Below, piece after piece: positions 44,315-49,086 of a stretch of DNA of 64,000 bases. The position numbers and the translations under genes were made by a program. Source of the stretch: Crocinitomicaceae bacterium (GTDB lineage Bacteria; Bacteroidota; Bacteroidia; Flavobacteriales_D; Crocinitomicaceae); contig JAGNZC010000002.1 of NCBI GenBank assembly GCA_017984635.1, positions 62,001 to 126,000 of the forward strand, in the 5' to 3' direction. A model generated the notes under the pieces. That model saw only the letters and a program-made list of their open reading frames with translations, made no database searches and was not told the DNA's origin. How positions within the stretch are numbered: the stretch's first letter is position 1; every line of letters starts with the position of its first letter.

Positions 44315-46597
<2,283 letters not shown>

Positions 46598-46613
46598 TTA
46601 CATTTTTATACTT

Positions 46614-46621
46614 CAAAATTA
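46614..46621 (-). promoter_or_regulatory. katG -7 promoter element
   Basis: TAATTTTG on the minus strand (46621 to 46614), 28 bp before the ATG at 46585. The -33 position holds only T/A bases, consistent with a promoter needing an activator. Confidence 0.5.
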
Positions 46622-46626
46622 ATGCA

Positions 46627-46634
46627 TAGCTTTG
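46627..46634 (+). promoter_or_regulatory. oxyR -7 promoter element
   Basis: TAGCTTTG on the plus strand, 43 bp before the oxyR ATG at 46678, nearly back to back with the katG element. Confidence 0.45.
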
Positions 46635-46646
46635 TTTTATAAAAAC

Positions 46647-46671
46647 GATATTTTGAATATCAATATTGATA
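46647..46671. promoter_or_regulatory. Candidate OxyR binding region between katG and oxyR
   Basis: Dyad GATATT-TTG-AATATC (46647-46661) overlaps a perfect 14-bp palindrome TATCAATATTGATA (46658-46671). The GATA/TATC tetranucleotides start at 46647, 46658 and 46668, about one helical turn apart, as LysR-type tetramers require. The region lies roughly 38-62 bp upstream of the expected katG start and inside the oxyR leader. Confidence 0.5.
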
Positions 46672-46677
46672 AAATAG

Positions 46678-47628
46678 ATGAACATACAACAATTTCAATA
46701 CGTGCTAGCAGTTGCTGAAAATCGTCACTTTGAATTAGCAGCCGAAAAGTGTTTTATCACACAATCAACATTAAGTACCATGATTTCAAAATTCGAAGAT
46801 GAAATCGGTATTTTAATTTTTGACAGGAAGAAAAAGCCTGTTGAAATTACGACTGAAGGTTTGTTAATCATTGAGCAATTAAAAATAATTCAGAATAACA
46901 TTGAACAATTAAAAGAATTTACCAAAGAATTAAAAGGAGAAATCAAAGGCAATTTAACGCTATCTGTTATTCCAACTATTGCTCCTTTTCTATTGCCTTT
47001 ATTTCTTCAAAAATTTGCAACAAAATTCCCTGAGTTATCTATTACAGTAAAAGAACAAACGACAGCTGAAATCATCCGAGCAATTAAAGCGCGTGAATTG
47101 GACATGGGAATCATTTCAATACCTGTTTTAGACAAAGATTTAATAGAAATAAAATTGTATGATGAAGCCTTTATTTTTTATGACACCAACAGTAATTCAA
47201 AACAAGAGATAACCGTTGACGGAATCAACATGGAGAACTTATGTTTGTTAGAAGAAGGTCATTGCATGCGCACGCAAGTCATCAAATTATGTGACATCCA
47301 CAAAAAACCCTATTCAAACAAGTTAAATTTTGAATACAAAGCAGGATCAATAGATAGTTTGTTGCGTTTTGTAAAAGCAAACAATGCTTCAACACTCCTT
47401 CCCTATTTATCAACGTTAGATTTCAATGAAAAAGAAAAGAATCACGTCAGTGAATTTTCGGAACCAATTCCATTTAGAAGTGTTGGAATTGTTGTTCACC
47501 GTCATTTTGTGAAAAAGAAATTATTAGAGATCATGCAAGAAGACATTATAAATCAAATTAAAAAACATCTTCCAAATCAATCTATTGATGGCCTTAAATT
47601 AATGCCTTTAAATGAGACTATAAAATAA
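46678..47628 (+). CDS. oxyR: OxyR-type LysR family hydrogen peroxide sensor
   Basis: 316 residues. An N-terminal winged HTH (MNIQQFQYVLAVAENRHFEL, CFITQSTLSTMISKFEDEIG) is followed by a LysR effector domain with the OxyR redox pair: Cys196 in LLEEGHCMRTQ and Cys205 in VIKLCDIHKK, separated by eight residues exactly as Cys199/Cys208 of E. coli OxyR. Peroxide oxidation of these should form a disulfide and turn on katG. It is divergent from katG and probably controls both genes. Convergent, nine bases later, is the YeiH-like gene. Confidence 0.93.
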   Translation: MNIQQFQYVLAVAENRHFELAAEKCFITQSTLSTMISKFEDEIGILIFDRKKKPVEITTEGLLIIEQLKIIQNNIEQLKEFTKELKGEIKGNLTLSVIPTIAPFLLPLFLQKFATKFPELSITVKEQTTAEIIRAIKARELDMGIISIPVLDKDLIEIKLYDEAFIFYDTNSNSKQEITVDGINMENLCLLEEGHCMRTQVIKLCDIHKKPYSNKLNFEYKAGSIDSLLRFVKANNASTLLPYLSTLDFNEKEKNHVSEFSEPIPFRSVGIVVHRHFVKKKLLEIMQEDIINQIKKHLPNQSIDGLKLMPLNETIK

Positions 47629-47637
47629 ATTAAGCAT

Positions 47638-48603
47638 TTACTGAAACTGAATAAAGAGTGCTAATAAAAGTATTTGAACCAAAAAAACTACTAATCCAAG
47701 AGTTAAACCTTTTCTTCCTGATCGCACTAATTTTTTAAAACTAACTTTCATTCCAATTGCACCCATGGCAATGGTTAAGATAATTTTACCAATGGTTCCC
47801 ATTAATGTTAAATAATTTTCTGAGAAAGTAACAAAGGTTCCAATAAGCGTAATGATTATAAATCCAATTAAGTACCAAGGAAGTTTAAAGTGATCTTTCC
47901 AAGATGTAGCAGATTTTCTATTGACTAAAAAATTGATAAAAATCAAACCTGGAGTCAATAGAGCAACTCGAGCTAATTTAATTGTGATTGCTGCCTCTCC
48001 TGCTTCAGCTCCGATTGAAAATCCGGCACCGGCAACATTCCCAATTGAATGTAAAGAACCACCTATCATCAATCCCATTTGATTAACTGATAAATGAAGT
48101 GGTATCAAAATCAAGGGTAAAACAATCATTCCGATTGTACCGTACAAATTAACAACAGCCATTGAGATAGCAACATCCTCCTTATCTTTTGAAACAGAAG
48201 GAGCAAGTGCAGCGATTGCAGATGAACCACAAATTGCAGTCCCAAAACCAACTAACCATCCAGTTGAACCTGGACATTTAAATTTTTTAGCAATAAAAAC
48301 AGTCAAAACTAAAATGGTGAAAAGAACAACTGCAACCGCAACAAAACTAAACCCTCCTAATTTGGCAATATTTGAATAATTGATGTCAAAGGCTAGAAAT
48401 AAAATTGAAAGCTCTAAAAGTTTACTACTTGTAAAAGTAATCCCACTTGTAAAATTGTCTGGAAGTTTAACTGTATTTCCTATTGTAATACCAAGAAATA
48501 GAGCGATCATTACACTATTTATAGCAGCTGGTGTGTACATAGAAAGTACATAGGAAATTATTCCAACAACAACTGCTATTAATATACCTCTCAATTTAGA
48601 CAT
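47638..48603 (-). CDS. YeiH/UPF0324 family putative sulfate exporter
   Basis: 321 residues from ATG 48603 (a TTG two codons upstream is possible). About ten hydrophobic segments form an integral membrane protein. UPF0324 hallmarks: MIALFLGITIGN, KLLELSILFLAF, GWLVGFGTAICGSSAIAALA, MGLMIGGSLHSIGNVAGAGF, and the C-terminal GMKVSFKKL. The family is called sulfate exporter on slight evidence; the substrate is not settled. It follows the rhodanese gene by seven bases, so the two form an operon that fits sulfite/sulfate or other sulfur handling. Confidence 0.88.
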   Translation of the reverse strand: MSKLRGILIAVVVGIISYVLSMYTPAAINSVMIALFLGITIGNTVKLPDNFTSGITFTSSKLLELSILFLAFDINYSNIAKLGGFSFVAVAVVLFTILVLTVFIAKKFKCPGSTGWLVGFGTAICGSSAIAALAPSVSKDKEDVAISMAVVNLYGTIGMIVLPLILIPLHLSVNQMGLMIGGSLHSIGNVAGAGFSIGAEAGEAAITIKLARVALLTPGLIFINFLVNRKSATSWKDHFKLPWYLIGFIIITLIGTFVTFSENYLTLMGTIGKIILTIAMGAIGMKVSFKKLVRSGRKGLTLGLVVFLVQILLLALFIQFQ

Positions 48604-48610
48604 TGACAAC

Positions 48611-49027
48611 TTATTTTTTCACAATTTTACCTTTCCAATTCATGATTCCACCAGCTAAATTGTAAACTTTTTTAAATCCACTATTGACAAAAACTTGAGC
48701 CGCTGCTGAACTTCTAGCACCACTTCTACAATATAAAATGTAATTTTTAGATTTATCTAATTTAGCAATATCAGATGTAAAACTTGATGAATTATAATCA
48801 AAATACATATCCACACCTTCAATCACACCTTGAGCAGTTTCTGAAGCAGTACGCACATCTATTACAACTGTGTTTTTGTTTTTTTCAAGTGAACTAAATT
48901 CTGGTGCAGCTATTGTCACTACTTTTGAAGATGGTTGTTTAAAGTTTGTTGATTCCTTAAAAGACATAGCTGTTATTGAAACGGAAGCAATTAAGACGAA
49001 TGATACTGAATTTATTCTATTTTTCAT
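48611..49027 (-). CDS. Exported rhodanese-like domain protein
   Basis: 138 residues. An N-terminal signal (FVLIASVSITAMSF) precedes a single rhodanese domain: VVIDVRTASE, then the active-site loop YCRSGARSS with catalytic Cys100, and VYNLAGGIMNW. The CRSGxRS loop is typical of single-domain sulfurtransferases. Export suggests periplasmic sulfur transfer, for instance on thiosulfate or polysulfide; the actual acceptor is unknown. It heads the operon with the YeiH-like gene, downstream of a Crp/Fnr-like palindrome. Confidence 0.9.
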   Translation of the reverse strand: MKNRINSVSFVLIASVSITAMSFKESTNFKQPSSKVVTIAAPEFSSLEKNKNTVVIDVRTASETAQGVIEGVDMYFDYNSSSFTSDIAKLDKSKNYILYCRSGARSSAAAQVFVNSGFKKVYNLAGGIMNWKGKIVKK

Positions 49028-49040
49028 ATTATTTTTTTTT

Positions 49041-49048
49041 CAAAAATA
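49041..49048 (-). promoter_or_regulatory. -7 element of the rhodanese-YeiH operon
   Basis: TATTTTTG on the minus strand (49048 to 49041), 13 bp before the ATG at 49027. It sets the palindrome at 49069-49086 near -41.5. Confidence 0.5.
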
Positions 49049-49068
49049 CCAACACAAATATTAATTTC

Positions 49069-49086
49069 TTGTAACAATAGTTACAA
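49069..49086 (-). promoter_or_regulatory. Crp/Fnr-like palindromic site upstream of the rhodanese-YeiH operon
   Basis: Perfect dyad TTGTAAC-AATA-GTTACAA: 7-bp arms with a 4-bp spacer, the architecture of Crp/Fnr family sites. If transcription starts at about 49036, five bases past the -7 element, the dyad centre at 49077.5 falls at about -41.5, the class II activation position. The regulator is unknown. Confidence 0.6.

Follow-up and report, generated by a model that had tools for sequence, protein, structure and literature searches.

The 64,000-nucleotide stretch of Crocinitomicaceae DNA analysed here (the window) contains a palindrome just ahead of an operon encoding a rhodanese and a YeiH-type membrane protein, and this locus raises the question of which regulator recognizes the palindrome and to which signal the operon answers. 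An earlier note on this DNA had described a perfect TTGTAAC-N4-GTTACAA dyad at the distance of a class II activator from a consensus -7 element, and had proposed that a Crp/Fnr-family regulator, possibly sensing oxygen, NO or haem, controls an exported sulfurtransferase and a putative sulfur-anion exporter. The dyad, which reads TTGTAACAATAGTTACAA, was confirmed at 49069-49086 by direct reading and by re-extraction (Table 1). In the Bacteroidetes the -7 consensus is TAnnTTTG, and the site of a class II activator is centred near -41.5. The plus strand at 49041-49048 reads CAAAAATA, the reverse complement of which is the -7 element TATTTTTG; the centre of the palindrome lies 29.5 bp from this element and 50.5 bp from the rhodanese ATG (49027, minus strand). 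The 29.5-bp spacing matches the expectation for a class II (-41.5) activator site, and the proposed distance was thus borne out.

Table 1. Positions of the features of the rhodanese-yeiH locus in the window and of the candidate regulator gene elsewhere in the genome.
Feature	Position	Strand	Product or reading	Basis
YeiH-type membrane protein, operon gene 2	47638..48609	-	323 aa, putative sulfite exporter	PF03601, E 4.3e-70
Single-domain rhodanese, operon gene 1	48611..49027	-	138 aa	PF00581, E 4.9e-16
-7 element TATTTTTG (TAnnTTTG)	49041..49048	-		direct reading
Palindrome TTGTAAC-N4-GTTACAA	49069..49086	+ (as read)	predicted CC-Crp operator	direct reading
LysR-type gene beside yeiH	46678..47628	+		
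CC-Crp gene, behind a DUF983 gene	G000:C39:21375-22031		219 aa, Crp/Fnr family; name given here for C-x5-CC	

The rhodanese shows, by eye, a hydrophobic segment at its N-terminus and is probably exported. The product of the second gene exceeds the cut-off of PF03601 (236.5 against 24.5 bits) and stays below that of TIGR00698 (158.6 against 232.6 bits). In published work, YeiH is the main factor for in vitro sulfite resistance in Salmonella (PMC12880088) and is regarded as an exporter of sulfite in Hyphomicrobium (PMC12423496). Because of the Salmonella work, sulfite would be the more likely cargo of the protein considered here. The proposed tie between a sulfurtransferase, a YeiH exporter and a Crp/Fnr protein gained support from the analysis, with the regulator encoded elsewhere in the genome and with export of the sulfurtransferase only probable. 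On the far side of yeiH, a katG-type catalase-peroxidase gene (minus strand) is divergent from an OxyR-like LysR gene (plus strand), which converges on yeiH (44315-47628).

Perfect dyads of the 7-N4-7 type are not rare, the window holding eight against a mean of 11.9 per shuffle (20 shuffles), and the idea that the palindrome stands out as a rare dyad per se was dropped, such dyads being no scarcer than chance. What is rare is the particular sequence: the exact 18-mer occurs once in the 2.65-Mb assembly (94% complete) and is absent from all 200 dinucleotide-shuffled versions of the window, and its core GTAACN4GTTAC appears 0.02 times per dinucleotide shuffle (200 shuffles). A scan of the genome for the palindrome, as proposed in the earlier note, therefore recovered the exact copy, whereas loose matches were unenriched: with up to two mismatches the whole genome holds 45 copies against 58 for the reversed control, and a genome-wide regulon defined in this way was abandoned. 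Within the window, the 12 matches with up to three mismatches are about the chance number, since 8 of 100 shuffles reach 12. Both one-mismatch matches in the genome fall within reading frames, rplC-like and UbiA-like (named by eye). Because perfect dyads alone are not rare, the significance of the palindrome rests on its conservation and on its position and context.

Conservation is seen before other yeiH operons. In four related metagenome-assembled genomes (MAGs) from a named collection, assigned to Fluviicola (two), Flavobacteriales and Crocinitomicaceae, the site precedes the rhodanese ATG with 2, 0, 2 and 0 mismatches (L018-L021, respectively). A family-wide search found yeiH in 24 of 150 genomes, including these four (the same genomes as L035, L036, L034 and L037 by a 400-bp exact match each, and counted once). 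Rhodanese adjoins yeiH in 10 of the 24 loci, and in nine of these ten a copy of the 18-mer with 0-3 mismatches has its centre 50.5-59.5 bp upstream of the rhodanese ATG; the tenth (L049; G019, 716-1501) carries a three-mismatch copy 56.5 bp before the thioredoxin gene that heads a thioredoxin-rhodanese-yeiH run. This run unites thioredoxin and rhodanese-yeiH, which have separate sites in the window's genome. In the remaining yeiH loci the site is missing, degenerate or of another form. A core with one mismatch lies 43.5 bp upstream of yeiH itself in two of them (L047, L048); another (L043, in genome G016) has GTGACTAAAGTCAC at 1149-1162 before a small ORF-yeiH operon, and in a fourth (L042) the small ORF that comes before yeiH is itself preceded by a GTTAC-GTCAC version. 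The bare family-wide count of the exact 18-mer is no evidence, with 8 of 150 genomes against 6 of 150 for the reversed control; among these matches, one lies inside a long ORF (L026), one inside an ORF near a yeiH (L032) and one before a membrane protein without evident sulfur link (L029). Judged by the comparative evidence, the window palindrome is a functional site. In a further genome, the exact palindrome stands before a ccoG-like gene beside cbb3-oxidase-like genes, named by eye (L027, G122:C47:15048-15065), a hint that in another genus the motif may also serve microaerobic respiration.

The core of the palindrome recurs before other genes of the same genome. Four exact GTAAC-N4-GTTAC cores were counted, against 22 for the reversed control, and three of them lie 50.5, 52.5 and 53.5 bp before the rhodanese gene, a thioredoxin gene and a DUF983-Crp operon, respectively, each with TAnnTTTG 28.5-29.5 bp from its centre. 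The thioredoxin site is also located 65.5 bp before a divergent membrane-protein ORF, and the fourth exact core (L087) has no recognised gene downstream. Moreover, the genome holds two persulfide dioxygenases and one SQR-like gene. A one-mismatch core with a -7 box at 29.5 bp is found 57.5 bp before one of the dioxygenases; two further one-mismatch cores, both without TAnnTTTG, lie 60.5 bp before the YgaP-TM gene heading the cluster of that dioxygenase and 61.5 bp before the other dioxygenase. Among the window's 52 genes that encode 100 aa or more, only the rhodanese has a core (up to one mismatch) 45-66 bp upstream, and only two do among 70 genes in 19 other loci of this genome, namely DUF983 and one in a locus fetched for its site. 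The regulon would thus comprise rhodanese-yeiH, thioredoxin, an operon of persulfide dioxygenase, SQR-like and methyltransferase genes and, with a second promoter inside it, a YgaP-TM-rhodanese-persulfide dioxygenase operon, and from the placement of the sites we regard this content as very probable.

As to the regulator, the Crp/Fnr protein that the earlier note had led one to expect does exist: a PF13545 search of the genome gave two proteins, encoded near each other on contig C39, and one of them, CC-Crp, has a matching recognition helix. CC-Crp scores 32.7 bits with PF00027 (cut-off 27.5) and 35.4 bits with PF13545 (cut-off 27), which places it in the Crp/Fnr superfamily, and its recognition helix SRVVISR aligns with STRVTVTR of NtcA. 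Helix residues 180 and 181 of Crp/Fnr proteins track the bases of the motif (Rodionov et al. 2005, PMC1274295), and the homologues of CC-Crp are consistent with such a code. Wherever an exact promoter dyad is present, helix and site agree, in 52 of 52 loci, with GTAAC accompanying V (46 V/A) and GTGAC accompanying E (6 E/G); the count was made on 108 loci and then repeated on 40 freshly fetched ones, the 96 of 148 without an exact promoter dyad being excluded, and one of the 52 (L224), which also has a second, E-type homologue, was scored by the closer one. A helix-masked tree implies two independent V/E switches only, so that a sign test is uninformative (p 0.5). One genome, G016, is discordant: its sole sampled regulator has V (L175), yet the dyad before its yeiH operon is the GTGAC type, GTGACTAAAGTCAC; this genome is 79% complete. 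Because the site precedes the regulator's own operon as well as sulfur genes, and because the helix matches, it is CC-Crp that very likely binds the GTAAC-N4-GTTAC palindrome.

The association of the site with CC-Crp and with sulfur genes extends to relatives. DUF983 stands in front of the regulator in 22 of 30 CC-Crp loci, and in 21 of these 22 operons a site that differs from the 18-mer by 0-4 mismatches lies 41.5-60.5 bp upstream of the ATG of DUF983, with an exact core in 15; a single DUF983 operon (L058) has no site. No such site is found at that distance before the regulator in the eight loci that lack DUF983, two of which show a four-mismatch copy before a divergent YgaP-TM gene. In one locus (L022, 6986-7032) the reading frames of DUF983 and CC-Crp overlap by 47 bp; given this overlap and a pairing seen at 22 of 30 loci, DUF983 may contribute to the pathway of sensing or detoxification. 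In three genomes of the same family (G060, G011, G005) and in other families of the class, CC-Crp lies amid sulfur genes, including SQR-like, SoxC-like, persulfide dioxygenase, TauE, YeeE/DUF6691, YgaP-TM and rhodanese genes (named by eye, with a sample checked by Pfam and phmmer). The core is frequent in the promoters of these neighbours, usually 51-66 bp upstream of the ATG and also at 41.5, 91.5 and 112.5 bp; one of ten neighbourhoods in one set (L162) has no site.

This association was quantified on 148 de-duplicated regulator loci, chosen by regulator homology except for three chosen by site (L135-L137) and hence not a random genome sample, by counting GTAAC or GTGAC cores with up to one mismatch 45-66 bp upstream of each gene. 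A core precedes 5 of 8 SQR, 25 of 45 DUF983, 12 of 22 YgaP-TM, 12 of 27 TauE, 7 of 16 YeeE and 15 of 36 PDO genes, against 8 of 813 other genes. The classes rhod (2/45), DUF6691 (0/16), Trx (0/15) and rhodYeiH (0/22) are weak, perhaps since many of their members are inner operon genes or loose matches, and the regulator gene itself is preceded by a core in 5 of 148 loci. With all classes pooled the contrast is 83/400 against 8/813 (Fisher p 1.2e-33, related genomes not being independent). The palindrome of the window thus appears to be one copy of a switch site common to sulfide-detoxification genes in many relatives. Sites with up to one mismatch also stand before a SulP-like permease (L110, by eye), before an exported ORF of 601 aa (by eye) that diverges from a molybdenum oxidoreductase, the latter recognised by Pfam (L135), before a similar molybdenum-protein ORF (L158, by eye) and before an OsmC-like ORF (L172, by eye), and these genes are possible further members of the regulon. 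Additional promoter-placed cores of the same genus were noted at L127 (G134:C5:58533) and L150 (G051:C92:42123), the latter before an SQR-like FAD protein (by eye).

Furthermore, the promoters share a fixed geometry. Among 82 unique promoter-proximal dyads, collected before target genes or not and including loci fetched for a site, the median distance from centre to ATG is 55.5 bp, and TAnnTTTG occurs 15-60 bp from the centre in 40, in 39 of which it lies at 28.5 or 29.5 bp; shuffled spacers gave a mean of 1.9 and a maximum of 7. Because of this phasing, the centre would fall near -41.5, the class II position, if the -7 box is at its usual place, and it is quite probable that the site acts as a class II activator promoter. 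According to the proposal favoured here, a CC-Crp homodimer would bind GTAAC-N4-GTTAC, the centre being near -41.5, and act there as a class II activator that recruits RNA polymerase to promoters whose -7 box is TAnnTTTG; it would control its own DUF983 operon and a sulfide/persulfide-detoxification regulon. Taken as a whole, the reading of the palindrome as a CC-Crp operator, with class II activation, a sulfur regulon and sulfane sulfur or sulfide as the likely signal, is considered likely.

Regarding the signal, CC-Crp has no cysteines other than C86, C92 and C93, and thus none of the FNR-type N-terminal ones. Among 148 homologues, C86 is found in all, C92 in 123, C93 in 116 and all three in 115, while 106 possess exactly three cysteines. 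The C-x5-CC motif sits in the stretch GDTCAMTLQCC, which we take, by alignment, to be the region that holds the cAMP phosphate in CRP. The signal would be sulfane sulfur (persulfide or polysulfide) or sulfide, sensed by C86 together with C92/C93; this proposal follows from the regulon and the conserved cysteines considered together, and sensing of sulfane sulfur by these residues seems rather probable. Two features expected of a thiol-based sulfane-sulfur sensor are present, namely conserved cysteines and, as far as the placement of sites goes, a regulon of sulfide/persulfide oxidation. It may further be suggested, with a confidence slightly above even, that a subfamily of Bacteroidota Crp/Fnr proteins has exchanged the cAMP cassette for a three-cysteine C-x5-CC sulfane-sulfur sensor and is a main activator of sulfide/persulfide oxidation in that phylum. 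In 19 of 148 homologues the motif is C-x5-GG, with one of the three cysteines, and some of these (L208, L209, L244) adjoin YgaP-TM or TauE genes bearing GTAAC sites. Because such homologues sit beside sulfur genes with these sites, the CC pair may not be essential for the role; possibly, the C-x5-GG proteins use the same operator for another signal.

Conserved cysteines can also be read in another way, in that CC-Crp would bind the site and respond to general thiol oxidation (H2O2 or disulfide stress) instead of sulfane sulfur. The three conserved cysteines and the thioredoxin target in its own genome fit this alternative; most other targets, instead, are genes of sulfide/persulfide oxidation or of sulfur-anion transport, and the katG gene of the window has no core (up to one mismatch) 45-66 bp upstream, so that general thiol oxidation appears unlikely as the signal.

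A different binder would be the second PF13545 protein, an FNR-like oxygen sensor of 229 aa that would couple the operon to oxygen. This protein has N-terminal CxxC and CxC motifs, is encoded beside CC-Crp and next to hemN-like and ccoI-like genes (by eye), and scores 88.3 bits with the Fnr model, below the cut-off of 228. Apart from CC-Crp it is the sole PF13545 match in the genome, and the exact palindrome before the ccoG-like gene of G122 would suit it. Its helix, TATETLIR (by eye), has no Arg at the equivalent of position 180 and a Glu at position 181, and because of these residues it is predicted to prefer a half-site other than TGTAA (PMC1274295); moreover, the site tracks CC-Crp instead, preceding the operon of CC-Crp and sulfur genes. 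The FNR-like protein was rejected as the binder for the mismatch of its helix, and we consider its involvement very unlikely.

Another reading takes the palindrome for an HcpR2-type site, with the operon responding to NO; it, too, is rated very improbable. The published HcpR2 consensus upstream of hcp, GTAACnnnnGTTAC, is identical (PMC1274295), and in P. gingivalis HcpR is a haem-binding protein that responds to nitrosative stress (PMC12040651). No match to hcp (PF03063) was found in the 94%-complete genome, whereas the control search finds hcp in Bacteroides; position 181 is Pro in most species with HcpR2 (PMC1274295) and Val in CC-Crp, and the CC-Crp regulon consists mostly of sulfur genes. 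HcpR was rejected as the regulator for lack of an hcp gene among the matches to the genome. The oxygen, NO or haem signal of the earlier note hence appears less likely, given that the helix of the FNR-like protein differs, that hcp was not found, and that the regulator with the matching helix is without N-terminal Fe-S cysteines and has a C-x5-CC motif with a regulon mostly of sulfide/persulfide oxidation.

According to another alternative, the LysR-type protein encoded beside yeiH would regulate the operon in the manner of Salmonella YeiE, the palindrome being incidental. LysR genes adjoin yeiH in Salmonella (PMC12880088) and in Hyphomicrobium (PMC12423496), and a LysR-like gene (by eye) is also found beside yeiH in one of the four MAG loci (L020). 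The window protein, on the other hand, scores best as OxyR, with 186 bits, below the cut-off of 329; its gene points away from katG and towards yeiH, and in the other three MAG loci (L018, L019, L021) the site is kept with no LysR-like ORF next to the rhodanese-yeiH pair. This neighbour was rejected as the regulator for its OxyR likeness and for the sites kept without it, and its control of the operon is highly improbable. Finally, the palindrome might belong to the upstream DEAD-box helicase gene, 3' of whose stop it lies, as a terminator or RNA hairpin (RNA fold of -8.9 kcal/mol, z -1.78, with 12 of 200 shuffles folding at least as well). This is hardly credible and was rejected, since a terminator search found no terminator-like site, and the palindrome is kept where the upstream gene differs, its spacing being conserved with respect to the ATG and fixed with respect to the -7 box that follow it.

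Reading the palindrome as a CC-Crp operator touches on a wider matter. Bacteroidota are common in sulfidic sediments, water and guts, and no description of their switch for sulfide/persulfide detoxification was found in searches of the open-licence PMC literature. With an operator, a regulator, a recognition code and candidate sensing cysteines named, such a switch becomes directly testable in a Flavobacterium or Fluviicola laboratory strain, and the sites connect genes whose function is unknown (DUF983, YgaP-TM) with sulfur metabolism. These searches yielded no Crp/Fnr regulator of sulfide/persulfide oxidation in Bacteroidota, no Crp/Fnr protein with a sulfane-sulfur-sensing C-x5-CC motif and no persulfide sensor studied in Bacteroidota. 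The DNA motif is not new, because the HcpR2 consensus is identical; for the regulator group, the sulfur regulon and the cysteine motif, no report was found in these searches. Many Crp/Fnr subgroups are reported to be uncharacterised (PMC9603854).

Among known systems, HcpR2 shares with CC-Crp the Crp/Fnr family, the consensus GTAACnnnnGTTAC and the absence of FNR-type cysteines; it differs by its mostly present Pro181 and its hcp/NO regulon (PMC1274295), CC-Crp having Val and its genome no hcp that could be found. Of the features that mark HcpR2, then, CC-Crp displays the motif and neither the hcp target nor the Pro at CRP position 181. The likeness to the Salmonella YeiE-YeiH system lies in the product of yeiH, which there confers sulfite resistance (PMC12880088); the regulator in Salmonella is the LysR-type YeiE next door, whereas here a Crp/Fnr site and a rhodanese partner are found. 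With CRP, CC-Crp shares the fold (by Pfam domains), the TGTxA-N6-TxACA geometry of the palindrome and the class II position; its score with the CRP model (NCBIfam equivalog) is 42.7 bits against a cut-off of 266, and the region of the cAMP cassette reads GDTCAMTLQCC. The R-V-x-V-T-R recognition helix is shared with NtcA of cyanobacteria, and so is the TGTA-N8-TACA site. NtcA senses 2-oxoglutarate and controls nitrogen genes. In CC-Crp the recognition helix alone is NtcA-like, the score with the NtcA model being 35.8 bits against a cut-off of 244.95. FNR is characterised by an N-terminal [4Fe-4S] cysteine cluster, which CC-Crp does not possess.

As for sulfur sensing, the sulfane-sulfur or persulfide sensors BigR/SqrR/SoxR/sHdrR, FisR, OxyR, MarR and PerR have conserved cysteines and several of them control sulfide/persulfide oxidation; these belong to the ArsR, Fis, LysR, MarR or Fur families and not to Crp/Fnr. 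CstR is such a sensor of the CsoR family. The nearest precedent for the proposed chemistry of CC-Crp is the Crp-like protein A1S_1182 of Acinetobacter baumannii, in which a conserved cysteine opposite the ligand pocket is persulfidated in sulfide-exposed cells; it differs in being about 50% identical to E. coli CRP, the effect of its persulfidation is given as unknown, and the sulfide genes of A. baumannii are under FisR and BigR and not Crp (PMC7315123).
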